Of a stretch of 64,000 nucleotides of DNA, positions 1-64,000 are shown piece by piece; position 1 is the stretch's first letter; every line of letters starts with the position of its first letter. Below the pieces are notes generated by a model. That model saw only the letters and a program-made list of their open reading frames with translations. It had not been told where the DNA came from and ran no database searches. The stretch lies in assembly GCA_013151025.1 (NCBI GenBank), contig JAADJC010000065.1, positions 1 to 64,000 of the forward strand, read 5' to 3'. A program made the position numbers and the translations under genes. Source of the DNA: Acidobacteriota bacterium. GTDB taxonomy: Bacteria; Acidobacteriota; Holophagae; Thermotomaculales; Thermotomaculaceae.

Positions 1-3000
1 CCTCCCAATGCGCTGGAAATAAAGAAAAAACACGAGAAAAATTTTGAAGACCTGATTCGCATTGCGGAAACACAGGGAAACATTTCCGGCAGCCAATCGG
101 CAGAGTCTGTATCCATTGACGGAATATGGGAAATCAGGGAAAATGACCGGGTTTCCGATTTAACTTGTCTTGTCAGTTCTGATTCGGGAAAAAATACATT
201 ACAGTATAAAAAAGAGAAATTTAAAGATCTTCCAAAAAATAAAAAACTTTTTATGAGACCATTCGCCGCAAATAAAATTTATCTGAAGAAAATGCGGGAT
301 ATTGGCAATGGTTTTTCTTTTTTATATGTTCATTTGTATGACGTTTATCGTTATGGTGCCGCAATTGACGCTGATGATGCATCCCTGGAATTGATTATGA
401 AACAAGTTGGAGATAACAAATATGTAATATTCTGGGACAGCAATCATAATGTATATACTCCCTCTAAAATCACCATTGAAGTTAAAGGTAAAACCTTGAG
501 TTTTGTTTATGAAAATTATCCTCACATCTCCCTTAACGGGAAGGGCTATGCGTATCACAAACGCTACGCATATCACTTTGTTAAATATCCTCAAAAGCCG
601 TCATTTCACCGGGACGTTGAGTACGGGAACTGGGATGAGTATGAAAAAGATATCTTTGATGGAATCCGGGAATATACCAGATTGAGCAGGCAGGAAAAAG
701 AAACCCCTTTCAATCAATTACCGGATTATGAGGATAACTGCGGCATGATTCGGGAAAAAGTGGCCTGGTTCCGGAGTTGTGAAGCGCTCTACAAAAAAGA
801 GGTTTCCCTGTTTAAAGGGCCACGATTGTCAACAGTGAAAGAAGACAGTCTTATGTGGAAACTTGAGAATGTGAAAATATTGGATAGCGGTGTCAGTGCC
901 TGGCAACCTGAACCCCATAGAAGTGGAGATGGTATCTTGCATAATACTTGGTATAGAATGACTTCTTCAAAATCTTCCGGATGGATAAAAATATGGAAAA
1001 TTGAAGAAAAAATCGAAACAGACCTTCTTGACAAAACGACCAAGACAAAAGTAGCAACATTTACCTGGCAACCGCCTTCTAAATTCTTTAGGCAGGGAAA
1101 TCAATGGCACATTAATATGAAAAGTTCTGGCCCTGCACACAGATCATGGATGCCCATGTTTCCTTTAGTGCCTGAATTTGAAACAGCTGAATTTAATCGT
1201 AATACAATTACGATGAGTCCGGATGTACTTGCCGGAGGTGATGGGACAATAGAGCTGAAAGGGGTTGTCGATGAAAAGAGTTCTGTCATTGTCCGTTATC
1301 AGTTCAGTTGTGTTGTCAGGGGAACAGAAAAGGATATTCCGGAAGAGCAGGTGGAATCAAACGTACCTATGCCTTTTCAGGTAAGCAAGGAAGATTTTTA
1401 CAAGCTCCAAATCCGGGAACTTACAGAAAAGATCGCGGCATACAAAGAAGACATGGCAAAGGCCACAACCGCGGAAGCGAAAGAACGCCTGGAATGGAAC
1501 ATACTGGGACGGGAAGCTGAATTACAGCAGCAGAAAGACTTTCTGGCACAATTGAAAACCGGGAATTTCAGCCATACGGAAACCCGGTGGGACAGGGCCA
1601 ACGCGGAGATTTCGGAGAATCGTTTTCTTGAGGAAAGCCGCGTCTATCAGAAAAAAATACACGAGTTTGAATACCGGGCAGACATGGTTCAGAAAATAGG
1701 TGTAATGGCCAAAAAAATGATAACCCAGGATGAACTGGGAATAAGGGACTGGGCTAACCGACAGCGGGAGCAGGCACTGAAAACCAGAGATAACAAGAAA
1801 CTCGCGGAAATTTATGCCGCCTTGAAAAAAAGATACCGGCAAAACACAGAAGAGGGCATAGTGGATGCAAACCGGGAAATTGCGTTCTGGGATGATGCGA
1901 TTGAAGGGGCCACATACGTAAAAGACAGAGCGGATACCGCTTTTATGATTGCGTCCATTATACAATCCGGCGGTACCATGTACCTCTATGCCGGCTATAC
2001 CGGACTGACAAACGGTATCAGCAATGGCATTATGTCCGGTGTGGAGAATGGCCTTAAAAACATCAACATGGCAACCATGGTCGTGGGAAGCGCCTATGAC
2101 GGCTATAACCGGATAGACTCCAAAACCGGCAAAAAAAGCGGGTTGACAGGCGCTGCTGAAAATGTGGGAATCACACTGGCAATCCTCGGCGTCTGCCACC
2201 TGGGCGTGAAAGCGGCGGTGAAAACCTGTTCTGCCGCGCAAAAAACCTACAGTAAATACGCCTTTGAAAGTGCTCTGACAGCCCAGGAGCGGGAAATGTC
2301 CATTACCATGGTTCAACGATACGAATCAAAACTTCTGAAAATAAAGAAACTGGCGCAGCGGGGAGAAAAAGCCGCCGCAAAGGAACAGGCGGCTTTGCTT
2401 GAAGCGGAAACCAAAAAACTCATGGCAAACCCCCACGCTAAAAATTACCTGAAATACAATGGTTCTAATATTACACAGCAGGCATATATCCACTACGAAG
2501 AAAAAATACAAAAGAAAGTGATTGATAAATTTTTGAAAAGAATGGAAGCCAAAGGATGGAATAAATTTGAAGTTCAGAACTTCAGGAACAAAGCATCATT
2601 GGGAAGCGTGGGGATGGACTGGGATGTGGGATTGGTTGAGAATAACTTAAAAAGCAAAATCATCAACGGAAAAGAAATCAAGGTCATCATTAAGAATGGA
2701 AAAGAAATGACAATTAAACAATTTGAGACAGAAGCAAAAAAGGAATTCGGGAAAGTTTACAAAGAAGTGACCGGCTATACGGCTGAAGGTTCCTTTGCCA
2801 ACTTCACGACCTCGGTAGACAATGAAGCTTTCAGGGATGCCGCCATTCTGACAGACCCGTCAAAGGCGAGCAAAAAACTTGCAAAATCAACGGCAGAAAC
2901 AGTCAAATACAAAGCCGATTTTATGGTGGGCAGGCACAGCAAAGGATTTATAACAAAAGCAGGCAAATACAGTGAGGCATGCCGGGGCATGGCCAAAGAA

Positions 3001-3228
3001 ATCCGCACAAAAATCATTCCGAACCTCAGACAGTCGTCCAACAAATTGTATTTACAGGATAGAATCGGATATATGAATAGGCTGTACCGTATTTTACAGA
3101 ATTTTGGGGAAAACAAAACCGGTATGGCGGAGGCAGAGCGGCAAGTACAGAAACTGACCGGGAAATCCCTCAATGAACTTTCTGAATATATCAGTTCATC
3201 ATTGGAAAAAACAATCAAGGCGAAATAG
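1..3228 (+). CDS. Large protein of unknown function, 5'-partial
   Basis: The reading frame is already open at base 1, so the gene begins upstream and the ATG at 253 is internal. 1075 residues are visible. I do not recognise the family. The N-terminal part (to about base 1350) is beta-rich with aromatic residues. Bases 1390-1850 encode a charged, probably coiled-coil stretch. Bases 1930-2250 encode a Gly/Ala-rich, weakly hydrophobic segment, and the rest is Lys-rich. A GS-x-GMDWD motif near base 2610 faintly recalls a nucleotidyltransferase GS...DxD loop, but the spacing is short and I would not assign function from it. Size, modular look and the toxin-like C-terminal half fit a secreted or contact-dependent effector, which is inference only. 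It stops 12 bases before the next gene, a membrane protein, and the two are probably co-transcribed. Confidence 0.75.
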   Translation, partial: PPNALEIKKKHEKNFEDLIRIAETQGNISGSQSAESVSIDGIWEIRENDRVSDLTCLVSSDSGKNTLQYKKEKFKDLPKNKKLFMRPFAANKIYLKKMRDIGNGFSFLYVHLYDVYRYGAAIDADDASLELIMKQVGDNKYVIFWDSNHNVYTPSKITIEVKGKTLSFVYENYPHISLNGKGYAYHKRYAYHFVKYPQKPSFHRDVEYGNWDEYEKDIFDGIREYTRLSRQEKETPFNQLPDYEDNCGMIREKVAWFRSCEALYKKEVSLFKGPRLSTVKEDSLMWKLENVKILDSGVSAWQPEPHRSGDGILHNTWYRMTSSKSSGWIKIWKIEEKIETDLLDKTTKTKVATFTWQPPSKFFRQGNQWHINMKSSGPAHRSWMPMFPLVPEFETAEFNRNTITMSPDVLAGGDGTIELKGVVDEKSSVIVRYQFSCVVRGTEKDIPEEQVESNVPMPFQVSKEDFYKLQIRELTEKIAAYKEDMAKATTAEAKERLEWNILGREAELQQQKDFLAQLKTGNFSHTETRWDRANAEISENRFLEESRVYQKKIHEFEYRADMVQKIGVMAKKMITQDELGIRDWANRQREQALKTRDNKKLAEIYAALKKRYRQNTEEGIVDANREIAFWDDAIEGATYVKDRADTAFMIASIIQSGGTMYLYAGYTGLTNGISNGIMSGVENGLKNINMATMVVGSAYDGYNRIDSKTGKKSGLTGAAENVGITLAILGVCHLGVKAAVKTCSAAQKTYSKYAFESALTAQEREMSITMVQRYESKLLKIKKLAQRGEKAAAKEQAALLEAETKKLMANPHAKNYLKYNGSNITQQAYIHYEEKIQKKVIDKFLKRMEAKGWNKFEVQNFRNKASLGSVGMDWDVGLVENNLKSKIINGKEIKVIIKNGKEMTIKQFETEAKKEFGKVYKEVTGYTAEGSFANFTTSVDNEAFRDAAILTDPSKASKKLAKSTAETVKYKADFMVGRHSKGFITKAGKYSEACRGMAKEIRTKIIPNLRQSSNKLYLQDRIGYMNRLYRILQNFGENKTGMAEAERQVQKLTGKSLNELSEYISSSLEKTIKAK

Positions 3229-3240
3229 GAGAAACTGCTG

Positions 3241-4173
3241 TTGAACAAGCAAAAACCGAAAGAAATCACGAACTGGGAAATAAAAATCCCTGTTTTTAAA
3301 AATCCCCTTCTCTGGTGCCAGTTATTCATTGTGTCGTTTCTTTCATCGGGATTTGTACTGGTTCTTCTTGTGGGGCTGAACCTGTTTGAGTATCACTGGG
3401 AAGAAATTCCGAATTCTTTTCTCGTCTGGGCCATCCTTGCCGGGGGAATATTCCTGGCATTTGCCGTTATTCTAATGCTTTTATTCAGGGGAGTTGTTAC
3501 CCGGTACACGATTTCTGAAAAGGGCGTGGTTCAGGAAACCCTTACGCCGTATCGTAAATTTGCGAAAAAAGTGCCATTTCTTGCCCTTCTTTTCGGGGGG
3601 AAACAGGGAATAACCACAGCGGGTGCCGGGATGCTGGCAAAATCAAGGGAAGTTATTTTTGCCCCATGGAAGGACATATCTTTAGTTGAACTGTACCCTT
3701 CCCGAATGGAAATCCGCCTGAAAAATCAGTGGCGAACAGTAATGCAGATTATTTGTCTCCCTGAAAATTATCGGGAAATTGCGGAGTTGGCCCAAAGATC
3801 CGTGTCCATTAAACCGGGGGAGGGGCCGGATTCCGTTTTTTTTCAAGTCGTGTTTACTTTTCTCACTCTGCTTTTGGGAGTTGCACTTTTTCCGAGATTG
3901 CCAATCCACGTTCCCGGAGTTTTTGTTATTCTGATGATGCTGCTTTTCGCTTTCCCCACAATCTGGAGCACCACGAAACTCCGAAAAATTTCTGCGGCCA
4001 TCATCTTGATTACATTGCTTGCCGGAGTGTTCCTCGCGTTCTATTTTGGGGAGGTGGATTTCAGTGGAGAAGGAGCGCTTTATGCCGCTTCCATTGAGTT
4101 CCTGTCGTTTGCTTTTTTTTCCGCTCTTGCCCTCCGTGGGATTTTCTCGGGGAAAACAGCAGAAAAAGAATAA
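3241..4173 (+). CDS. Polytopic membrane protein with a central cytosolic domain
   Basis: 310 residues from a TTG start, with GGAG-like bases (aggagaaactg) just upstream. Two hydrophobic helices lie near residues 20-45 and 55-80. A soluble central segment (about 85-190) of alternating short strands follows; it includes an EVIFAPWKDI stretch typical of PH-like (bPH) membrane-associated domains. Four more hydrophobic helices lie between about 195 and 300. It follows the large upstream gene by 12 bases, so a role as partner, immunity or export factor of that protein is possible but unproven. The gene ends facing a convergent ParA-like gene, with 51 bases between them and no clear terminator. Confidence 0.65.
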   Translation: MNKQKPKEITNWEIKIPVFKNPLLWCQLFIVSFLSSGFVLVLLVGLNLFEYHWEEIPNSFLVWAILAGGIFLAFAVILMLLFRGVVTRYTISEKGVVQETLTPYRKFAKKVPFLALLFGGKQGITTAGAGMLAKSREVIFAPWKDISLVELYPSRMEIRLKNQWRTVMQIICLPENYREIAELAQRSVSIKPGEGPDSVFFQVVFTFLTLLLGVALFPRLPIHVPGVFVILMMLLFAFPTIWSTTKLRKISAAIILITLLAGVFLAFYFGEVDFSGEGALYAASIEFLSFAFFSALALRGIFSGKTAEKE

Positions 4174-53323: not shown

Positions 53324-53339
53324 TGGCATCATCCTTGCT
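53324..53339 (+). promoter_or_regulatory. Sigma-54 promoter before the GcvH-like gene
   Basis: TGGCAT (53324-53329), five bases, TTGCT (53335-53339): the GG and GC pairs are 12 bases apart, as in the -24/-12 consensus TGGCAC-N5-TTGCA/T. It lies 24 bases before the GcvH-like ATG. Confidence 0.85.
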
Positions 53340-53363: not shown

Positions 53364-54197
53364 ATGACGAGCTTACTGGTGGCATTCACGTTTCTGGGTT
53401 GTTTCCTGATGGTTCGGGAAACAGGCCATCACGGAACAAGCCGCAACTTAGATGGATTTCCGGGGGAAATCCCGGAAATGGAAGGGCTGAAAGAAGTCTT
53501 TCCAAACCTGCCTTCGGACCGTCGGGTATGCCGCTACTATTTCGGGAATCAGTCCGGGGCACCGGTTTATTGTGAGAATGAATACGATTGTGCGTCCTGT
53601 CATATTCATCGGAAAATGATGGCGACAGGCCTGGGGAAGATGGAAAATGTGAAATGCGGACTGAAAATATCCGGAGTTCCGTTCCCGTTGGACCGGTACT
53701 ATCACCGGGGCCACGTATGGGCAAGGCCGGAGAGGAATGGTTTTGTGAGAATCGGGCTGGACGGACTGGCATTTCGGATGGCCGGGGCGGAAAGCGAAAT
53801 TCACGTGCCAGACATTGGAGAAATGCTGGAGCAGGGAGAATCCGGGCTTTCAGTCACCCGTTTCGATGGCAGAATACTCCCGTTTCTGGCACCGATGTCG
53901 GGGGAAGTGGCAGCAATTAACCCTCACCTGAAAGAAGAGCTGGCGGATCCGGATAAAAGCGGAGAAAGTTGGGCAATGGTTATCAAACCCTTTGCGTTGA
54001 GCCGGGAATTGCAGAATCTCCTGTTTGGTATGGAGGCGGCAAAGTGGTTTCGCTATGAAATGGATGCACTGGTCAGAATGGCATCCGGCAAACGTGATGA
54101 ATATGAGTTCGCGGCGGATGGTGGCGCGTTGAATGTGGAAACCCTCAGTGATTTTCCATGGAACGAATTTGTAACAAACTTTCTGTTTTCGGCGTAA
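53364..54197 (+). CDS. GcvH-like (lipoyl-fold) protein without the lipoyl lysine, membrane-anchored
   Basis: 277 residues; AGGAGG upstream. The first 17 residues (MTSLLVAFTFLGCFLM) form a helix that resembles the start of the neighbouring micro-membrane proteins. Cys56, Cys70, Cys76 and Cys79 follow; Cys76-Ala-Ser-Cys79-His80 is a CxxCH pattern that could bind haem c or a metal. From about 130 the chain matches glycine-cleavage H-protein: YHRGHVWARPE, FVRIGLDGLAFR, and PMSGEVAAINPHL. The residue that carries lipoate in GcvH is not Lys (region SVTRFDGRILP has none). No GcvP/T genes are present. It is under sigma-54 control and probably works in redox signalling or electron transfer, not glycine cleavage. 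Confidence 0.8.
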   Translation: MTSLLVAFTFLGCFLMVRETGHHGTSRNLDGFPGEIPEMEGLKEVFPNLPSDRRVCRYYFGNQSGAPVYCENEYDCASCHIHRKMMATGLGKMENVKCGLKISGVPFPLDRYYHRGHVWARPERNGFVRIGLDGLAFRMAGAESEIHVPDIGEMLEQGESGLSVTRFDGRILPFLAPMSGEVAAINPHLKEELADPDKSGESWAMVIKPFALSRELQNLLFGMEAAKWFRYEMDALVRMASGKRDEYEFAADGGALNVETLSDFPWNEFVTNFLFSA

Positions 54198-54215: not shown

Positions 54216-54419
54216 ATGGTCGTTTTACTGGTAATCTTAACATTCGCGGTTCTGTTCACTGCGGGAATGATTGTGGAACGCAGGGAAAACCGGGAACGCC
54301 AGGCTGCCCGGGAATTGCGGCAGTTGGCACAACAGGCGGTATTTGCCCAGGACGGCGGTGAGCCCATTGGCAAAGAAACCGCAGACAACTCAGATGAAGC
54401 TGTAAAAGAAGAGAGGTGA
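54216..54419 (+). CDS. Micro-membrane protein with VFAQDGGEP motif (copy 1)
   Basis: 67 residues; GGAGG upstream. One N-terminal transmembrane helix (MVVLLVILTFAVLFTAGMIV), a basic/acidic linker, then VFAQDGGEPIGKE and an acidic tail. Two paralogues lie at 58401 and 58617. They share the helix onset and the VFAQDGG-P-KE motif. Unknown function. It follows the GcvH-like gene by 18 bases and is in the same sigma-54 transcript. It may be a small membrane subunit or regulator of the electron-transfer complex. Confidence 0.75.
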   Translation: MVVLLVILTFAVLFTAGMIVERRENRERQAARELRQLAQQAVFAQDGGEPIGKETADNSDEAVKEER

Positions 54420-54744
54420 GGGAAGGAACGGTGCGTTGCGCCGAAACAGTGCGAGAGAAAGTGCGTGTGCGTGGGAGGGGAGTGGGAAAGAAGGGATTCA
54501 CCTCGTACACGTACACTCTCACATTCACTGGCATTGGTCTGCCGCCCACTTCCAACGCCCACTCTCCTTTCTTCGCTCAACCCTGGTTTTTTCTTAACCT
54601 CAGCCTTGCCTTAGTTATCTGGTTATGCAACGGGAAATTGTCCCTTGACTGGAAAGTTTGATATTGTCCCCCGATTTTCAAATTTTGGGTCGGTTTTTGT
54701 TCTTTTCTCTTTCCAGTCGCTTTGAAAATGGTGTGCCGAGGAAT
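54420..54744 (+). other. Gap between convergent genes; low-complexity only
   Basis: 325 bases between the micro-protein gene and the convergent GGDEF gene. It contains gtgcg/gtgcgt and ctcac/cactctc stretches, some mirrored, and a tail gctcaaccctgg...cttaacctcagcc similar to the elements beside lexA. No gene, no strong hairpin and no consensus promoter are visible. Confidence 0.5.
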
Positions 54745-57618
54745 TCAATATGGCCCGGATACAGTGTTCCGTATCTTTTTTGCCTCATATAAAAATTTAT
54801 CTGCTTCAGCGACAAGAGCTTCGGGCTCTGTATTTTCCTTTGGGATAATGCAGGTCCACCCGATACTGACGGTAAGCACTGATGCTGTTGGGGAATCGGA
54901 GTGGGAAATTGACAGGGCTTCAACGGAGTTTCTGACAGATTCCGCAAGTTCGGCGGCTGAGTGGCGCTTGGTTTCAGGTAGAAGGAGGATGAATTCTTCA
55001 CCACCATATCGGGCTGCAAGATCGAAAGCACGACGGGCATGGTCTGATAGGACTCGGGAAACAGCCCGCAGGCACTCATCACCGGCAAGGTGACCGTAAC
55101 AGTCATTGAATTTCTTAAAATGATCAATGTCAATAAACAGCAGGGCAAGACAGTGTTGATTTCGAAAGCAGCGGCGACATTCTGAGGTAAGTGCCTCATT
55201 GAATTTTCGCCTGTTTATAAGCCCTGTTAATGCGTCATGAATTGCCAGCTCTTCAAGTTGTTTGTTTACAGTTGCCAGTTCGCTATTTGCTGCCTCCACT
55301 TCTTTTGTTCGTTGTGCGACAATCTGCCTTAGCTCGCGTTCCTTTGCCCGTAAACGTGCCGTACGGTACCTGACAATGCTCCAACCAAGCAGGACAAGAC
55401 ATACCAGAACAAGGATGAAGAAGTAGATTGTCTGGTGAAAGGCTGGTGTAACTTCCAGGATGATTTGTGCAGGGGGCGTGGCCCACGGGCCGGCGCCGTG
55501 CCGGGCAGTCAAGGTGAATTGAAAGCGGCCAGGTGGCAGGGATGTAAAAAAAGCCTCCTGCGCCTTACCTGCCTTAACCCAGGTGGAATCAAAACCGATC
55601 AACCGGTAACGAAAGGACAGTTTTTCCGCTGAGACCAATGAAATGGCTCCATAACGGATCTGAACTCGTCTGCTCCCGCTTGGAATGTTGAACACGGGGA
55701 TTTTTTCACCGGATTCAGGTTTGGCTTGCCGGCCATCAATCAGTACTTCCTCTATGCTTACAGGCGGGGGTAATTCGATTGCTTTTACTCGGACCGGGTC
55801 TATTATGGCTACTCCGTTGGTTGTAGCAAAACAGAAATTACCGTTACTCAAGATGGTACCTCCCGGATGGCCACTGTTGCACTCAGTGGAAGGCATTCCG
55901 TCAATTCGGCCAACAACCAAAATTTCCAGGTGGGATTTTTCCCGGCGATGAATTTCATTCAACATTTTTCGGCTGATTCGCATAATACCGAGATCGCTGC
56001 TTATCCAGAATTGGTCATGGAGATCAGGTAATATCCAGTACAACATCTCATTTGGTAGCCCCTGTGTGCTGTTAATCAATTCAAGGTGCCCCTTTTCAAA
56101 GCGGCCAAGTCCGGCGTCTGTGGCAAGCCATATAACATGGTCATTGTCCTGATAAATACAGTGAACACGAGATTTCGAGAGCCTTTCAGTACCGGGAACA
56201 GAAACGAGTTTCCCGTTGATAATCCATGCAAGGCCTGCAGTTGTCCCCACCCAAATTCGCCCATGTATGTCCTGTTTCAGGCTTCGAATGACAGTTGGTT
56301 GTGTGTTGCTAATTCGTTGCCGCCACTGAATTTGTCCGTTCGGAGACATACAGGCCAATCCGTTACCGGTACCAATCCAGAGACGTCCCAGATGGTCCTG
56401 AAGCATGCAGTAGATGATGTTTCTTCCAGTGGGTTTTGACCAGCGATACCAGCTTACTTTTCGGTCGTGGATGTGAGCGAGGCCGTTCCCACTTGTTCCA
56501 ATCCAGAGATCGCCTGTCCGGTCCGTCAGGAAGGCTCGAATTTCAACGCCTATCAATCCCGGGTCACTGAAAGGTGGTGGGAAGGGAATGCCGCTTTCCA
56601 GGCGAACAACACCGCCCCCACTGGTTCCGACCCACAAATTGTCTTTCTGATCTTCATACACGGACCAGATGAATGGTACCGGAAGCCCTTCTCTTACGGT
56701 CCAGGAAGTGACAGCACCATCTCGAAGCCGGGAAAGGCCTCCTGCAGTAACGAACCAGAGAGATCCTGCTCGATCTTCGAATATCTGACGGACAAGGTCA
56801 TCTGACAGGCCGTCGGCGGTTGAAAATCGGGCCAAAATCCCGTCATGAAAACGAAAAGAACCATTCCCTCTGGTGCCAATCCATATATTGTGGTCTTTGT
56901 CTTCGAGCAGGCAACGAATCCACAGTCCTTTCAGTTTTTTCAGAACGGCCAAATTCAGTTTGCGTCCATTCATGACAACCCGGATGCCAAGGGAAGTACC
57001 AATCCAAAGCCGGCCTTTGGAATCTTCCAGTATGGCATTAACAATGTCACCCTGCTTGAAATAGTGACTTGCCGGTCTTGTATCTCCGAGAGTCTTCATC
57101 TGAAGCAGCCCGCGCATAGTGCCGGCCCATACCCGTGCGCCCCGGCCATGGGCAATGGTGAGTGCAGAGGCAGTATTTGTTTCAATTGTATGCAGTGGAA
57201 CTACTTTCCTTGTGGCCAATTCAAACTTTAAAACACCCTGTTCGGTCGCAAGGGCAAGGGTGTGAGGCCCAATCTTTGCCAGTCCCAAAGCGCCACCGGC
57301 TGGAAGGCCATCTTCTGCTCCCCATCTGAGGAAAACATCGTTTTTAAGGTAAAACAGATTGTTGCGTGTTGTATACCAGATGCCATTTTCCGAGTCAGCC
57401 AGAAGCCCCGTAACGTAATGGTCTCCCGGTGTGGCATTTGTTGGAAGGGGAATCTTTCGAAAGTGAGTGCCGTCAAATCGAATGAGGCCTGAAGGGGCAC
57501 CAATCCAGATTGCTCCATCAGTGGTCTGGGCGATTGCTGTCAGGGTTTCCTGGGGAAGTCCGTCTTTGGCCTGCCATGTCGTCAATGTATACTGCGTGAC
57601 TTTTTTATGGGGGTTCAA
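54745..57618 (-). CDS. Periplasmic-propeller diguanylate cyclase (GGDEF)
   Basis: 957 residues from a TTG at 57618. About a dozen two-component-propeller repeats (IWIGAPSGLIRFDG, LWIGTSLGIR, IWVGTTAGLAWI), a Y_Y_Y domain (about 640-745), one transmembrane helix (FILVLVCLVLLGWSIV), a coiled coil, and a GGDEF domain with RYGGEEF and an I-site RAFD five residues before it. It should make c-di-GMP in response to a periplasmic ligand. In-frame codons extend upstream to 57735 and encode a signal-peptide-like SAILFILAIAYQPALG, but have no ATG, GTG or TTG; the true start may be a rare codon (ATA at 57711-57709 behind AGGAG) or be altered by a sequence error. Confidence 0.9.
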   Translation of the reverse strand: MNPHKKVTQYTLTTWQAKDGLPQETLTAIAQTTDGAIWIGAPSGLIRFDGTHFRKIPLPTNATPGDHYVTGLLADSENGIWYTTRNNLFYLKNDVFLRWGAEDGLPAGGALGLAKIGPHTLALATEQGVLKFELATRKVVPLHTIETNTASALTIAHGRGARVWAGTMRGLLQMKTLGDTRPASHYFKQGDIVNAILEDSKGRLWIGTSLGIRVVMNGRKLNLAVLKKLKGLWIRCLLEDKDHNIWIGTRGNGSFRFHDGILARFSTADGLSDDLVRQIFEDRAGSLWFVTAGGLSRLRDGAVTSWTVREGLPVPFIWSVYEDQKDNLWVGTSGGGVVRLESGIPFPPPFSDPGLIGVEIRAFLTDRTGDLWIGTSGNGLAHIHDRKVSWYRWSKPTGRNIIYCMLQDHLGRLWIGTGNGLACMSPNGQIQWRQRISNTQPTVIRSLKQDIHGRIWVGTTAGLAWIINGKLVSVPGTERLSKSRVHCIYQDNDHVIWLATDAGLGRFEKGHLELINSTQGLPNEMLYWILPDLHDQFWISSDLGIMRISRKMLNEIHRREKSHLEILVVGRIDGMPSTECNSGHPGGTILSNGNFCFATTNGVAIIDPVRVKAIELPPPVSIEEVLIDGRQAKPESGEKIPVFNIPSGSRRVQIRYGAISLVSAEKLSFRYRLIGFDSTWVKAGKAQEAFFTSLPPGRFQFTLTARHGAGPWATPPAQIILEVTPAFHQTIYFFILVLVCLVLLGWSIVRYRTARLRAKERELRQIVAQRTKEVEAANSELATVNKQLEELAIHDALTGLINRRKFNEALTSECRRCFRNQHCLALLFIDIDHFKKFNDCYGHLAGDECLRAVSRVLSDHARRAFDLAARYGGEEFILLLPETKRHSAAELAESVRNSVEALSISHSDSPTASVLTVSIGWTCIIPKENTEPEALVAEADKFLYEAKKIRNTVSGPY

Positions 57619-57989
57619 CCCCAGGGCGGGCTGGTACGCTATGGCAAGAATAAAGAGGATAGCTGATAATAGATGAATTCTATGCCCTGAATAGATGTTT
57701 AATAACTGTATATTGTTCTCCTGTTTCCGTTCTTATCCTTGGCCGATAAAATTTCAAAGTCTTTTCCGCTTTTCATGTTAAATGCACTCTTTACAGTATA
57801 CCATTGTTGTCTGAGTTTTGGCGTTTTTTTATGAGTGAATATACCTTGCTGCCGGTGACTGACAAAAAAAGAACGGGAATGGCCTAATTTTCCCCGCTGC
57901 GGTAGTTGGCAAGTGGACAGGTTGTAAAAAACAGGGAATCAGCCATCGGTAATGCTTTGATTTATCTCCACCGGCATACGTACATTCAC

Positions 57990-58046
57990 TTGCACTTCCG
58001 CGGCGCGAAGCGCCGTCTGTTCGCGCTGTTTTGAGTGCAATTTTTT
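57990..58046 (+). ncRNA. Candidate small RNA or attenuator with alternative hairpins
   Basis: TTGCACT (57990-57996) pairs with AGTGCAA (58034-58040), which is followed by six T, a terminator-like end. Inside, CGGCGC-GAA-GCGCCG (58001-58015) forms a perfect stem. The overlapping GCGCGAA (58003-58009) can pair instead with TTCGCGC (58020-58026). The two inner folds are exclusive. Transcription is not shown. Confidence 0.35.
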
Positions 58047-58149
58047 ATTGTCCGGCATTAAAATATGATAGTATATCTGAATAAGCGGGTGTGTTTCCGC
58101 CGGCTTTTATTCCCCCGTGAACAATCAAAAGCTTGTGTGTTGAAAAAAA

Positions 58150-58161
58150 CCACAGTTGTGG
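58150..58161 (+). promoter_or_regulatory. Palindrome CCAC-AGTT-GTGG, candidate activator site
   Basis: Perfect inverted 12-mer CCACAGTTGTGG, about 150 bases before the sigma-54 promoter. A two-base variant, CCACGTTTGTGG, sits at 59039-59050 before the ferredoxin gene. Likely enhancer or operator for this cluster's regulator. Confidence 0.45.
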
Positions 58162-58311
58162 ATATATGCCACGCCTTCTGTAACGCATAGAAAGAAAAAG
58201 GAGAAATAATCCAAAGTAATTGGTGCTGTTGAAAAATGCAACAAGTAAGCCCTGTGCTGAAATTTTGTCAATATTCACGTAACAACAAGAAAATAAAAGC
58301 AAATGGGATTT

Positions 58312-58327
58312 TGGCACGGCAATTGCA
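58312..58327 (+). promoter_or_regulatory. Sigma-54 promoter before the micro-protein pair
   Basis: TGGCAC (58312-58317), GGCAA, TTGCA (58323-58327): a full match to the sigma-54 consensus. It is 73 bases before the ATG of the first gene. Confidence 0.93.
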
Positions 58328-58400
58328 CAGTGATTAGGTGTCGGGTGAAAACCCGGGGTCATTGAAATAACAAACGGCGAAAGCCGATAGGAGGCCTGAG

Positions 58401-58604
58401 ATGGTTGCTTTGTTAGTGCTTTTTACAATTGTTGGATGTCTGGTAGTGGATTCGATTGTTCTGTCTGTGCGGGAACGGAGAGCGGTTATGGCTGGTGAGC
58501 GGAAGCTGACCGGTGCGGAAAGTATGGTGTTTGCCCAGGATGGCGGCAAGCCGGTTGAAAAAGAAACCGAAACTGAGGCCGATAGGGTCGAGAAAGAGTC
58601 ATAG
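58401..58604 (+). CDS. Micro-membrane protein with VFAQDGGKP motif (copy 2)
   Basis: 67 residues; AGGAGG upstream. Helix MVALLVLFTIVGCLVVDSIVL at the N-terminus, then basic RERR, then MVFAQDGGKPVEKE and an acidic end. Paralogue of the proteins at 54216 and 58617; identical start MVALLV with copy 3. It is the first gene behind the consensus sigma-54 promoter. Unknown function; probably one-pass inner-membrane with a cytosolic tail (positive residues follow the helix). Confidence 0.8.
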   Translation: MVALLVLFTIVGCLVVDSIVLSVRERRAVMAGERKLTGAESMVFAQDGGKPVEKETETEADRVEKES

Positions 58605-58616
58605 GGGAGGACGAAG

Positions 58617-58847
58617 ATGGTTGCCTTACTGGTTGTTTTTACGATCCTTGCGTGCCTACTGGCAGACGCGATTCTCCTTTCAGTGCGGGAGCATAGAGCG
58701 GTAAGAGCAAGTCAGGTGTCTACAGTTCCGGCCCATGGCTTGGTGTTTGCCCAGGACGGCGGTGAGCCGGTGGAGAAAGATGAGAAGGTGATCGGCGAAG
58801 TGCCCTGGAAAGATATGGATGCAAAGAATGAGAGCCGTGAAAGGTGA
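58617..58847 (+). CDS. Micro-membrane protein with VFAQDGGEP motif (copy 3)
   Basis: 76 residues; GGGGAGG upstream, 12 bases after copy 2. Helix MVALLVVFTILACLLADAILL, then SVREHRAV (copy 2 has SVRERRAV), then LVFAQDGGEPVEKDE and a longer charged tail. Copies 2 and 3 look like a tandem duplication. A hairpin at 58901-58934 follows, then the ferredoxin gene. Confidence 0.8.
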   Translation: MVALLVVFTILACLLADAILLSVREHRAVRASQVSTVPAHGLVFAQDGGEPVEKDEKVIGEVPWKDMDAKNESRER

Positions 58848-59098: not shown

Positions 59099-59890
59099 AT
59101 GCCCAAAGCCATGCTGGTGGACATTACGGAATGCGTGGGGTGCGGGGTCTGTTCGGAGGCCTGCAAGAAGGAGCAAAAGCTTCCCGGGCCTGTTGGGAAA
59201 AAAAAGGATTATGCTAATTATACCGTCCTTCGTGAGGAAGGCGATGATGTGTATGTACGGGAATTGTGCATGCACTGCACAGATCCGACCTGCGCGTCTG
59301 TCTGTCCGGTAAGCGCGCTGCACAAAACACCGGAAGGCCCGGTGGTGTATGATTTTGACCTCTGTATCGGTTGTCGTTACTGTATGATGGCGTGCCCTTT
59401 TGGTGTGCCCAAGTACGAGTGGCAGAAACCGATTCCTAAAATTAAAAAGTGCATCATGTGTTACGATACCCGGATCAAAAAAGGGTTGCCGACAGCCTGT
59501 AGCCAGGCCTGCCAGGAAGAGGGTGGTGGCGCGACTTACTTTGGGGAACGAAGTGAGTTGCTGGCGGAAGCCCATCGCCGCATCAAAGAAAATCCGGATA
59601 CCTACGCTCCACATGTGTATGGAGAACACGAGGTCGGTGGCACCAATGTGATGTTTCTCGCGCCGAAGGATCGTCCCTTTGAGTCTCTTCATTTCAATAC
59701 AAAACTGCCGGAAGAGGCACTGCCTGAATTGACCTGGCAGGTGTTGAATAAAATTCCGGTCATTGTTCCGGTCTGGGCGACTTTCCTGACCGGCATGTGG
59801 TGGCTGAACAACCGGAAGACGGAAGTGGAAGAAAATGAAGGATCCAAGAAAATTCGTGATGAAAAGCATGGGGAGGGTGAAAATGACTAA
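59099..59890 (+). CDS. HybA-like four-cluster ferredoxin subunit
   Basis: 263 residues; AAGGAG upstream. Four [4Fe-4S] sites typical of the HybA/DmsB/NrfC group: CVGCGVCSEAC, CMHCTDPTCASVC, CIGCRYCMMAC and CIMC...C...C. Near the C-terminus one helix (IPVIVPVWATFLTGMWWL) anchors it to the membrane, as in HybA. No Tat signal is present. It passes electrons between the NrfD/HybB subunit and an unidentified partner; no hydrogenase or molybdo-subunit adjoins it. Its end overlaps the next gene by eight bases. Confidence 0.92.
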   Translation: MPKAMLVDITECVGCGVCSEACKKEQKLPGPVGKKKDYANYTVLREEGDDVYVRELCMHCTDPTCASVCPVSALHKTPEGPVVYDFDLCIGCRYCMMACPFGVPKYEWQKPIPKIKKCIMCYDTRIKKGLPTACSQACQEEGGGATYFGERSELLAEAHRRIKENPDTYAPHVYGEHEVGGTNVMFLAPKDRPFESLHFNTKLPEEALPELTWQVLNKIPVIVPVWATFLTGMWWLNNRKTEVEENEGSKKIRDEKHGEGEND

Positions 59891-61037
59891 GCCAAAATTT
59901 AAGTTTACATTCTGGCGGGTTGTAGCAGCCCTGATCCTGATTGCCGGCGCGGTGGCGACTTTTCAGCGTTTTGTGTATGGTCTGGGATATGCCACTCATT
60001 TATCCGATGATTTTCCCTGGGGCCTTTGGATCGGGTTTGATGTTATTTCCGGTGTGGGCCTGGCGGCCGGTGGCTTTACCATTACCGCCATTGTCTATAT
60101 TTTTAATCTAAAAAAATATCACTGTATTGTGAAAGCAACCGTACTGACGGCTTTTATGGGTTATGTACTGGTGGGAACCGCTCTCTTGTGGGACCTTGGT
60201 AAATACTATGATATCTGGCATGCCCTGGTATTTGGAAACCACCATTCCGCCATGTTTGAATTGGCGGTCTGCGTGGCAAGTTACATCGGGGTACTGGCTT
60301 TGGAGTTCTCATCCATTGCGCTGGGTAAATTCAAGTGGTTGCGGAAACCTGTTAAGTTCCTCAAGAAGAGTTATATCTTATTGGTTATCCTTGGCGTGTT
60401 GATTTCCACCCTGCATCAGTCGTCACTGGGAACTCTGTATGTCATCGTTCCTGAAAAATTGCATCCCTTGTGGTACAGCCGACTTCTGCCTATTTACTTC
60501 TTTTTCACTTCGATAGGCGTCGGGCTGGGTATGACCGTGGTGGAATCCTATTTGAGCTGGCGGGGAATGGGCCATGAAGCTCCCCTCCCGGTACTGGCGA
60601 ACCTGGTCCGGGGAATGGTTGTGATTCAATTGACATTCTTTGTCGCCATGTTTGAGGGGTTGATTGTCAGCCATAAACTGGGTTATCTCGTGGACGGTTC
60701 ATTTGAGTCCGGGATGTGGTGGCTGGAAATGGCGTTGTGGGTGTTTATTCCCACAATTATTGCGTTCCGGAAAAAGTGGATGATGACCCGTTTTGGCGTG
60801 TTTGCCGCAGGATTTTCAGGCGTATTGGGTTTTTTGATGAATCGGCTTAACGTGTCCATGACGGCATTTCAATGGTCCGCAAAGGTCAAGTATGTGCCGT
60901 CCTGGCAGGAAATGGCTGTGTCCGCTTCCTTTGTAGTGGTTTCGTTTATCATATTTGCGTACGCAGTCAAATATTTTAACCTCTTTCATGAAGAAGATGA
61001 GGAGTCTATAGAAGAATCCGCTGTAAAGGCGGTCTAA
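59883..61037 (+). CDS. HybB/NrfD-type membrane quinone oxidoreductase subunit
   Basis: 384 residues from the ATG at 59883 (GGGGAGGG upstream); a longer frame starts at 59835 inside the ferredoxin gene. About nine to ten helices. The onset FWRVVAALILIAGAVATFQRFVYGLG and HLSDDFPWGLWIG are characteristic of HybB. It moves electrons and protons between the quinone pool and the ferredoxin subunit without haem. It has no catalytic partner in view. The hairpin GCCCC...GGGGC at 61051-61066 with five T follows and could reduce expression of the kinase. Confidence 0.92.
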   Translation: MTKPKFKFTFWRVVAALILIAGAVATFQRFVYGLGYATHLSDDFPWGLWIGFDVISGVGLAAGGFTITAIVYIFNLKKYHCIVKATVLTAFMGYVLVGTALLWDLGKYYDIWHALVFGNHHSAMFELAVCVASYIGVLALEFSSIALGKFKWLRKPVKFLKKSYILLVILGVLISTLHQSSLGTLYVIVPEKLHPLWYSRLLPIYFFFTSIGVGLGMTVVESYLSWRGMGHEAPLPVLANLVRGMVVIQLTFFVAMFEGLIVSHKLGYLVDGSFESGMWWLEMALWVFIPTIIAFRKKWMMTRFGVFAAGFSGVLGFLMNRLNVSMTAFQWSAKVKYVPSWQEMAVSASFVVVSFIIFAYAVKYFNLFHEEDEESIEESAVKAV

Positions 61038-61088: not shown

Positions 61089-62675
61089 ATGAACCCGTTA
61101 AAGAACATCAGCTCGATCCGCCTGAAAATCTATATCATCATTGCAGTATCCATCACTTTTGCTTTTCTCGCTTTTGATATGATCATGCTGAAACATCAGC
61201 GGAATATCTATATTGAAGACCTGTTATTCAATTCCCGCTCCGTGTCCGACACGATTCTGAAATCACTGGAACAGGACATGATGGCGGACAATACCACAAG
61301 CATCAACATAACGTTAAAAGCGATTGGAAAGCAGGAGCTTATCAAGGAGCTGAGGATATACAATCACAAGGGAGAAGTCCGCTCTTCCATGGTTCCGGAT
61401 GAAGTGGGAAAGGCCCAGTTCAGCCGGAAGGAATCCCGCCAGTGTTCTATTTGCCATCAGGCAGGGCATGAACAAAACAAGAATCACGACATGTTAACTT
61501 ACAATGTAGATACAAAAGATAGCTGTATTACGTCCGTGATTGTCCCGATCCAGAATCAGGCCCGTTGCTCAACTGCCGCCTGTCATGCCCACAGTCAGAC
61601 CCAGCGGATTCTGGGGTTCCTGAACATGGGCGTTTGCCGGCTGCGGCTTCAGGCGGACATTCACAAGAGTCAGGTTCAGATTCTCCTGGTTTCCCTTCTC
61701 TTCATCCTTCTCTTACCCGCTCTTATCATGCTGTTCCTGAAAAAACACGTATCCAATCCCCTTCGTCAGCTTCTCAAGAGCACCGGTAAGATTGGCAGAG
61801 GCGATCTGGATTGCAAGGTAGATATTGTCAGCCGGGATGAACTGGGGCAGTTGGCTTTCTCCTTCAACAAAATGCTGGAAAGACTGGTTGCGTTCAAGAC
61901 TGAAATTGAAGGGTGGAACGAAGAGTTGGAAGAGCGGGTGTCAAAGAAAACCATGCAGCTGAAGGAAGCCCAGAAACAGATTATCCAGTCGGAAAAAATG
62001 TCCTCTCTGGGGCGTCTCGCCGCTGTTATTGCCCATGAGATTAACAACCCGATATCCGGCTTGATCGTATTCATTAAATTGTTACAGAAAACAATGGATA
62101 AAGAGGTACTTACCGAAGAGGATCGTGTAAAAGTGGTCAAGAGACTGTGCATCATGGAAAGTGAAGCCAAACGTTGCGGCCACATTGTTTCCGAGCTCTT
62201 GTCTTTTTCCAGAGCTGAGCAGAAGATGGTGGAATGCAATATTGCAGAAATCATTGAGCGGTCGGTTTCCATTTTGAAATTCAAAACCAAGGACAAGCAA
62301 ATCAGTTTGAATCTTGACATTGAATCGAATATTCCAATGATCCAGTGTGACCCCGGGAAAATTCAGCAGATCATCATGAATCTGGTCCAGAATGCCATTG
62401 AGGCCTTGCCCCAGGGGGGAGAGATTGACATTTCTGCCTGTTTCTTGAAAGAAGAAGAAAAATTGAAACTGGTTGTCCACGATAATGGAATCGGGATACC
62501 GGAGGAATTTCTTCCCCATATTTTTGAACCTTTTTATTCATCCAAAGATAATGGCCAAAGTGTGGGAATCGGGCTCTTTGTGGTGTACGGAGTGATTCAC
62601 CAGCATAATGGCGTCGTTGAGGTGGACAGTGCCGAGGGGAAGGGAACAACCTTTAGCATATTCCTTCCCGCATAG
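61089..62675 (+). CDS. Histidine kinase with periplasmic haem-c motifs
   Basis: 528 residues from the ATG at 61089 (AAAGGGG upstream). Helices at about 14-34 and 197-218 enclose a periplasmic domain with Cys119-Ser-Ile-Cys122-His123 (CxxCH) and Cys160...Cys165-His166 (CX4CH), two haem-c type attachment motifs. HAMP at about 218-270, then HisKA with the phospho-His in IAHEINNP, and HATPase boxes NLVQNAIEAL, DNGIGIPEEF, and GIGLFVVYG. It should report redox potential or a ligand of periplasmic haem. The response regulator follows at once, so they form a two-component pair beside the HybA/HybB genes. Confidence 0.92.
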   Translation: MNPLKNISSIRLKIYIIIAVSITFAFLAFDMIMLKHQRNIYIEDLLFNSRSVSDTILKSLEQDMMADNTTSINITLKAIGKQELIKELRIYNHKGEVRSSMVPDEVGKAQFSRKESRQCSICHQAGHEQNKNHDMLTYNVDTKDSCITSVIVPIQNQARCSTAACHAHSQTQRILGFLNMGVCRLRLQADIHKSQVQILLVSLLFILLLPALIMLFLKKHVSNPLRQLLKSTGKIGRGDLDCKVDIVSRDELGQLAFSFNKMLERLVAFKTEIEGWNEELEERVSKKTMQLKEAQKQIIQSEKMSSLGRLAAVIAHEINNPISGLIVFIKLLQKTMDKEVLTEEDRVKVVKRLCIMESEAKRCGHIVSELLSFSRAEQKMVECNIAEIIERSVSILKFKTKDKQISLNLDIESNIPMIQCDPGKIQQIIMNLVQNAIEALPQGGEIDISACFLKEEEKLKLVVHDNGIGIPEEFLPHIFEPFYSSKDNGQSVGIGLFVVYGVIHQHNGVVEVDSAEGKGTTFSIFLPA

Positions 62676-62776: not shown

Positions 62777-64000
62777 ATGAATGACAACGTAAAGATACTG
62801 GTTGTAGATGATGAGTTGATTGTCCGGGAATCCATGCAGGGATGGCTGGAGGAAGACGGATACCACGTAGAAGTCGCGGAAACTGCGGAAGCCGCGCTGG
62901 GAATGATTGGCGAAAGAGAATTCGACATGGCCTTTGTGGACATTAAAATGCCGGGGATTGACGGAATCGAATTGCTGAAACGGCTGAAGGATCAGTTTGC
63001 CACTATAGACGTTGTAATGATGACGGCTTACGCATCAGTGGACAATGCGGTGGAGGCTATGAAAATTGGCGCGTACGACTATCTGACCAAGCCTTTTGAC
63101 CCGGATTATGTTTCCATGATGGTGAGAAAAATTATAGCAAGACGTCAGTTGGAGCAGGAAAATGTGAGGCTCAAAGAAAATATTGAAACTGCACTAAAGC
63201 ATGTGCACATTATTGGGGAAAGTTCGGCGATCAAAGCGATTTTGAGTCAGGTTGAGGAGGTGGCCCCCTCCGATACCTCCGTTCTCATCAGCGGGGAGAG
63301 TGGAACCGGCAAAGAAATGGTGGCCCGGGCGATCCATTATGCCAGTCCCCGGCGGTTTGAGCCACTGGTAGTGGTGAGCTGCGGCGCCCTTCCGGAAGGC
63401 CTGGTGGAAAGTGAGCTTTTCGGATACGAAAGAGGCGCGTTTACCGGAGCATTTTATAAGAAAAAGGGAAAATTCGAAGCTGCAAACGGTGGAACCCTTT
63501 TTCTCGATGAAATCGGGGAGCTGAACCGTAAAATGCAGGTCGATTTACTCCGTGTTCTTCAGGAGAGAGAAATCACACGGATCGGCAGCAACAAAAGTAT
63601 CAAGGTCGATTTTCGGGTTCTGGCTGCATCCAACCGAGATTTAAAAAAAATGGTAGAAGAAGGGACTTTTCGGGAAGATCTGTTTTACCGTCTCAATGTA
63701 TTCAATATATACGTGCCGACCCTTCGGGAACGGGTAGACGACATCCCCCTGCTGGTGGAGCATTTTATTTCCGTGCTTAGGCGAAAGACCGGCAAACAGG
63801 TGGAAGGGATTACCTCCCAGGCACTGAATAAGCTGAAGACGCACGGCTGGCCCGGCAATGTCAGGGAACTTCAAAATGCCGTGGAGCGTGCCTTTGTGAC
63901 GACAAAAGGCAAGCTGATTACCACGGAAGAATTGATTTTTCTTGCGCCTGAGAAAATACCGGTTGTTACATCTCCGTCCCTTTCCCTGTCTGACATTGAG
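62777..64000 (+). CDS. Sigma-54-dependent response regulator (NtrC type), 3'-partial
   Basis: 408 codons, no stop before the window ends; GGAGG upstream. Receiver (1-120) with VVDDE and phospho-Asp in VDIKMPG. AAA+ domain: GESGTGKE (Walker A), GAFTGA (sigma-54 contact), FLDEIGEL (Walker B), and RLNVFNI. The C-terminal helix-turn-helix is beyond the window. It activates sigma-54 promoters after phosphorylation, most simply by the kinase just upstream, and the two sigma-54 promoters in this window are its obvious targets. Confidence 0.95.
   Translation, partial: MNDNVKILVVDDELIVRESMQGWLEEDGYHVEVAETAEAALGMIGEREFDMAFVDIKMPGIDGIELLKRLKDQFATIDVVMMTAYASVDNAVEAMKIGAYDYLTKPFDPDYVSMMVRKIIARRQLEQENVRLKENIETALKHVHIIGESSAIKAILSQVEEVAPSDTSVLISGESGTGKEMVARAIHYASPRRFEPLVVVSCGALPEGLVESELFGYERGAFTGAFYKKKGKFEAANGGTLFLDEIGELNRKMQVDLLRVLQEREITRIGSNKSIKVDFRVLAASNRDLKKMVEEGTFREDLFYRLNVFNIYVPTLRERVDDIPLLVEHFISVLRRKTGKQVEGITSQALNKLKTHGWPGNVRELQNAVERAFVTTKGKLITTEELIFLAPEKIPVVTSPSLSLSDIE

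Follow-up and report, generated by a model that had tools for sequence, protein, structure and literature searches.

The window analysed here is a stretch of 64,000 nucleotides from an Acidobacteriota bacterium, and it encodes three proteins of 67–76 residues that we call micro-proteins (Table 1). An earlier reading made from the sequence alone (the sequence-only reading) had described them as sharing an N-terminal helix and a VFAQDGG motif, and the helix and FAQDGG are found in all three when the open reading frames are read directly. The GcvH-like, Fe–S, and NrfD genes of the redox neighbourhood that it had proposed are likewise present. The GcvH-like protein belongs to a membrane-anchored family found across Acidobacteriota, to which we give the name GcvHm.

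Table 1. Genes and sequence features of the micro-protein locus. Positions are those of the window, except for the last row.
Feature	Position	Strand	Details
−24/−12 sigma-54 promoter-like site TGGCATCATCCTTGCT of the GcvHm–micro-protein 1 unit	53324..53339	+	1 mismatch
GcvHm, membrane-anchored GcvH-like protein	53364..54197	+	PF01597 E 1.3e-9; H-protein fold; lipoyl Lys replaced
FAADGG in the GcvHm tail, corresponding to FAQDGG	54108..54125	+	read directly; motif conserved across the GcvHm family
Micro-protein 1 (type 1)	54216..54419	+	67 aa; FAQDGG at 54342-54359
−24/−12 sigma-54 promoter-like site TGGCACGGCAATTGCA of the micro-protein 2–micro-protein 3 unit	58312..58327	+	perfect consensus
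5′ leader with two GNRA-type hairpins	58336..58400	+	conserved in 7 sequences; one compensatory pair
Micro-protein 2 (type 2)	58401..58604	+	67 aa; FAQDGG at 58530-58547
Micro-protein 3 (type 2)	58617..58847	+	76 aa; FAQDGG at 58746-58763
Fe–S subunit, HmcB/HybA-like, C-terminal helix	59099..59890	+	NF045715 E 2.4e-71, below cut-off, aligned from model position 37; no RR motif
NrfD-type quinone-binding membrane subunit, HmcC/HybB-like	59883..61037 (listed ORF opens 59835)	+	PF03916 E 5e-11; NF045714 E 6.6e-86, below cut-off
Sensor histidine kinase	61089..62675 (listed ORF opens 61044)	+	CxxCH and CxxxxCH in sensor part
Sigma-54-type response regulator	62777..64000	+	continues beyond window end
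Archaemetzincin gene, after the sigma-54 regulator	contig 64107-64652		

A strong Shine–Dalgarno sequence lies ahead of each of the three micro-protein ORFs. In an alignment of 24 homologues, M1, L4, L5, V6, and FAQDGG are invariant, and the tail residues that follow DGG are charged and variable. The longer motif that had been proposed, with E/K-P-x-x-K-E after the DGG, holds for micro-proteins 1 and 2 but not for micro-protein 3, which has EPVEKD. A short charged linker is the sole stretch between the membrane anchor and the DGG tail, and the model of micro-protein 3 is a single helix at residues 2–33 with the remainder unstructured. The micro-proteins are coding, conserved, and under purifying selection, since the pooled pN/pS for orthologues in the host genus is 0.21–0.32, with the lowest values over the motif (0.10) and anchor (0.17) and higher ones over the linker (0.35) and tail (0.39). 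The ratio of synonymous to nonsynonymous change had been proposed as a check on these genes, and pN/pS is well below one. Constraint is weaker in one sister-genus pair (0.58) and in one pair (0.51) from f35, a distant family of a different class from the host. The micro-proteins do resemble deletion derivatives, as decaying, functionless gene remnants would. It is nevertheless extremely improbable that they are remnants, because they are under selection; moreover, the motif is invariant across two families, and the genes have their own putative promoters and ribosome-binding sites.

No Pfam or NCBIfam model matches the micro-proteins. The sequence-only reading had remarked that such short genes are often missed. 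A profile search of the PDB gave just weak SecG-like helix matches, with E values of 0.03 or worse, and we rejected a SecG-like identity, as these matches reflect generic helix similarity. A TatA-like identity came into question because tatA and tatC adjoin the cluster at another locus (L045), as does tatC at two more (L046 and L060). It was rejected as well; the sequences do not resemble TatA, and the clusters of the host genus showed no tat gene beside them.

The sequence-only reading placed all three genes in sigma-54 units. A site of the TGGCATCATCCTTGCT type is found 24 nt before the GcvHm ATG in all four genomes of the host genus. The second site, TGGCACGGCAATTGCA, lies 73 nt before the micro-protein 2 gene in the window, and in the host-genus genomes, sites with 0–1 mismatch occur 71–74 nt before the ATG of micro-protein 2 and of an unlinked micro-protein 4. 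Sites with 0–1 mismatch also precede the units of three other loci (L045, L046, and L060). Because sigma-54-like matches over the whole window are no more frequent than expected by chance, the evidence for these sites is their conserved position. They are well placed, and we regard them as putative promoters, in agreement with the earlier assignment. An Rfam search of the leader region found nothing near a gathering score.

The GcvHm of the window carries a Cys-rich insert, CxYYF...CxNEYxCxxC. At the position of the lipoyl-attachment lysine (ESVKA), GcvHm proteins mostly have Gly; in related genomes, the canonical GcvH proteins retain Lys. Since this lysine is missing, GcvHm is unlikely to be a lipoyl carrier of the usual kind. 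Nearly all GcvHm proteins of the clusters have a DG(G/A) motif, mostly after A, Q, or P, at about 26–54 residues from the C-terminus. This tail had been overlooked in the sequence-only reading. NCBIfam NF045810, a GcvH-related protein, is another noncanonical GcvH relative and matches the GcvHm of a related family with E 4e-10; however, the match is below the cut-off and covers the H domain alone (residues 47–158), with neither the anchor nor the tail.

The models closest to the neighbouring Fe–S and NrfD genes are HmcB/HmcC and HybA/HybB, but the cluster scores well below the curated cut-offs, and no catalytic subunit was recognised. The Fe–S subunit also differs from these systems in having no Tat signal. 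This holds throughout the micro-protein-bearing clade, whereas the Fe–S proteins of several other clusters have one, and the Fe–S subunit of the window is predicted to be cytoplasmic. The CxxCH and CxxxxCH motifs of the histidine kinase occur in most loci and are consistent with a c-type heme sensor. Dozens of acidobacterial loci combine one to three GcvHm genes with some or all of the Fe–S, NrfD, histidine kinase, sigma-54 regulator, and archaemetzincin genes. In our literature search on GcvH-like/NrfD/archaemetzincin systems, no description of them was found.

Homologues of the micro-proteins exist in other genomes. Profile searches of 297 and 396 Acidobacteriota genomes restrict the true members to the host family, f1 (4/4 genomes of the host genus and 2/5 of a sister genus), and to f35. 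Genomes of the host genus have 3–5 copies; the genome to which the window belongs was searched and has a fourth copy on a different contig. When 84,980 species were scanned for the pattern, relatives were seen only in Acidobacteria, although a near-exact motif was required and divergent forms could escape; a tblastn search of plasmids gave no match. The expectation that the genes always adjoin NrfD-type or GcvH-like genes does not hold: 22 of 26 copies adjoin the FeS–NrfD cluster. All four host-genus genomes contain, in addition, a single unlinked copy that is preceded by a sigma-54-like site of its own. In three of these four genomes, the unlinked copy is located beside regulatory genes. The NrfD proteins of f1 and f35 form a single clade (support 100/100), apart from the Geothrix-like family f2, which shares the host's class. 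The operon may therefore have moved between lineages. Clusters of f1 and f35 have one GcvHm and two to four micro-proteins, and those of other lineages often have two or three GcvHm per cluster. Within the f1/f35 NrfD clade, the micro-proteins appear to be a derived trait.

The two ends of the micro-proteins were compared with those of GcvHm by position-specific anchor and tail scores built solely from GcvHm of families other than the host's. The micro-protein anchors score 23–47 bits (leave-one-out median for genuine anchors, 43.6), and the best of 4161 unrelated ORFs scores 10.4 bits. Among shuffled sequences, 99.9% are below 20.7 bits, but the top shuffle, at 34.1, exceeds the weaker type 1 anchors. 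The tails score 11–24 bits (median for genuine tails, 22), with 99.9% of shuffles below 8.3 and a maximum of 15.3 among 48,000, so that some of the weaker micro-protein scores overlap the shuffle extreme. The matching anchor comprises 22 residues with the GcvHm-type pattern M-V/T-x-x-x-V-x-x-T, and the tail match spans about 10 residues including the C-terminal (A/Q/P)DG(G/A) motif. Absent from the micro-proteins are the hammerhead H domain of GcvHm and the final W..EF(F/L) helix that is conserved after the DGG in GcvHm. An independent micro-protein HMM matches GcvHm frames at 1e-4 to 1e-6, over their first 22–45 residues. All the weak matches of the profile outside f1 and f35 fall in these residues of frames of 230–560 aa; the frames that were read in their entirety encode membrane-anchored GcvH-like proteins.

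Since both ends match GcvHm far above background, the best reading of the micro-proteins is that they are GcvHm paralogues without the H domain, reduced to anchor and tail. They could instead be an independent small-protein family, whose ends, a generic helix and a short motif, came to resemble those of GcvHm by convergence. The matching stretches are indeed short, and the helix of the window's own GcvHm scores just 4.6 bits, compared with 30–38 for the window's micro-proteins. We nevertheless consider convergence unlikely, as the matches cover the two ends in their proper order, involve genes of the same operon, and far exceed those of 4161 and 2875 background ORFs. The window's own GcvHm was rejected as the direct parent, as its anchor and tail score far below those of other families. 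Because the GcvHm of this clade is low at both ends, the parent of the H-domain-less paralogues would have to be another GcvHm copy, now lost. The sequence-only reading had noted a matching helix at the start of the GcvH-like protein; the match is weak in the protein of the window but strong in GcvH-like proteins of other families. Its proposal of a new family stands in that these are real, unannotated small membrane proteins, but the motif is not private to them, and their ends are those of the widespread GcvHm.

The single unrelated small ORF with a tail score above 9 (L145:2793) adjoins a GcvH-like gene, and its product likewise combines a helix with ADGG. Relatives of this protein from families f25, f37, and f72 have (L)GLTMADGGEK or GVTMADGGEK as their C-terminal residues. 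This second single-helix set is located in a different NrfD cluster type, and the L145 cluster has, in addition, a gene whose product shows a weak molybdopterin-binding match. Thus, the layout of anchor plus DGG exists more than once.

What is the function of the micro-proteins? We lean, with modest confidence, toward the proposal that these H-domain-less GcvHm paralogues act as accessory or assembly subunits of the Fe–S/NrfD membrane complex, judging from their anatomy, linkage, and topology. By the positive-inside rule, the helix would be oriented N-out/C-in, and this would give the tail a cytoplasmic location, as predicted for the signal-less Fe–S subunit. The anchor would pack with NrfD in the membrane, and the DGG tail might dock on the Fe–S subunit or another cytoplasmic subunit. 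The AlphaFold model of the window's GcvHm is poor at both ends and the placement of its tail too uncertain, so this docking role has no structural support. The micro-proteins would take the anchor and tail positions that other lineages would fill with a second and third GcvHm. The complex would be switched on when the histidine kinase with the c-heme motifs phosphorylates the sigma-54 regulator. CydX-like small accessory subunits of respiratory complexes are single-helix micro-proteins encoded together with the large subunits. The micro-proteins studied here are also single-helix proteins whose genes accompany those of large subunits. Unlike CydX, they would derive from a larger paralogue, and they carry a conserved tail motif that is predicted to be cytoplasmic.

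A signalling role is quite unlikely in our judgement. The micro-proteins would then be adaptors rather than structural subunits, with helix and tail coupling the histidine kinase or the regulator to the redox state of the NrfD complex. Such a role would fit the regulatory surroundings of the unlinked copy, and Geothrix-like genomes encode, next to the FeS–NrfD–kinase genes, a fusion of a similar anchor with receiver and GcvH domains. However, these receiver fusions do not have the DGG tail, and the kinase and regulator are also found in clusters without micro-proteins.

The archaemetzincin gene suggests another function for the tail. The operon's archaemetzincin could recognise or cleave its targets at the (A/Q)DGG tail, with the micro-proteins as anchored substrates or as competitive decoys that tune GcvHm processing. 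We regard this as rather unlikely, and the case for it is one of co-occurrence. Archaemetzincin is found in 36/36 sampled genomes in which the tail motif is DGG (or DGA), in 0/3 host-family genomes without micro-proteins, and in 2/12 background genomes. It is found in 0/11 genomes of lineages with the receiver-fused, DGG-less GcvH-like protein, which belong to three families, mostly one, and in which the fusion was read in a subset and otherwise inferred from frame length. The full catalytic motif is present in 24 of 26 archaemetzincins. Neither protein has an export signal, so protease and substrate would meet in the cytoplasm. However, the protease, the sigma-54 regulator, and the DGG tail are lost together, in at most three independent losses, and an effect of the tail is inseparable from that of the regulator. 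The regulator is missing in both fused loci examined (L150 and L152). For this reason, and because the 11 genomes are mostly of one family, the co-occurrence is suggestive only. If archaemetzincin did act at the DGG tail of GcvHm and the two micro-protein sets, which we likewise hold to be rather unlikely, it would control the assembly or turnover of the NrfD complex.

In relation to known proteins, the micro-proteins match the anchor and (A/Q)DGG tail of a membrane-anchored, nonlipoylated branch of the glycine cleavage H protein family (PF01597), but they have no H domain and escape the family models. They are a real, selected, and unannotated small-protein family with a traceable origin, and the reading of a wholly new family is only partly supported. 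The origin proposed here for these annotation-missed genes is a domain-sized deletion that left the membrane anchor and tail, and it suggests that these two parts are the minimum that a widespread GcvH-like membrane protein needs for its function. The analysis also ties GcvHm, the Fe–S/NrfD module, the kinase with c-heme motifs, the sigma-54 regulator, and archaemetzincin into one recurrent acidobacterial system. It would supply a candidate substrate for the archaemetzincins, whose natural substrates were unknown as of a 2012 structural paper (PMC3427221).

The two sigma-54 units lie about 4 kb apart in the window, as against 0.5 kb in genome G001, so the propeller (Reg_prop/Y_Y_Y) diguanylate cyclase gene between them looks like an insertion.

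Features of the window and of related acidobacterial loci (L)
Feature	Position	Remark
Diguanylate cyclase gene	54745-57618 (-)	between GcvHm-micro1 and micro2-micro3 units
GcvHm	53364-54197	
micro2 5' leader	58336-58400	
Histidine kinase	61089-62675	
Unlinked micro-protein	G000:C110:2844-3056 (L052)	others at L049, L050, L051
Chimeric micro-protein	L047:3646-3906	at contig end
tatC	L045:7314-8433; L046:8506-9270; L060:5971-6786	directly upstream of cluster; tatA too in L045
Second micro-protein set	L145:2793-3044; L146:about 2999-3253; L157; L160	single helix
Anchor-receiver-GcvH fusions	L150:5695-6822; L152:2670-3779; L084	

Each host-genus genome carries one micro-protein outside the cluster (loci L049-L052) with its own conserved sigma-54-like site, adjoined in three of the four by a response regulator/phosphatase-like gene. 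Two conserved GNRA-type hairpins, for which there is no Rfam family, occur in the 5' leaders of micro2 (also in L043 and L044) and of these unlinked copies, beginning close to the expected transcription start. The chimera follows micro1 through FAQDGGEP and then has a micro1b-type C-terminus; it is either an assembly artefact or a product of recombination at the motif.

The tatC position immediately 5' of the cluster is seen in the sister genus and in family f35, yet the Fe-S proteins of these clusters have no Tat signal.

Micro-proteins of the second set end in (L)GLTMADGGEK or GVTMADGGEK and are followed by a Cys-rich GcvH-like gene, with FeS-NrfD genes next in L145, L146, and L151; one gene of the L145 cluster weakly matches a molybdopterin-binding domain. 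The fusions in L150 and L152 adjoin FeS, NrfD, and kinase genes, but neither of these loci has the sigma-54 regulator or the archaemetzincin. The DGG tail is absent from all three fusions.

The GcvHm of the window has a Cys-rich insert, C..YF....C.NEY.C..C, which is kept in both micro-bearing families and is possibly a metal site. The sensor part of the histidine kinase and its homologues contains CxxCH plus CxxxxCH in most loci, which suggests that the kinase is a c-type heme redox sensor.
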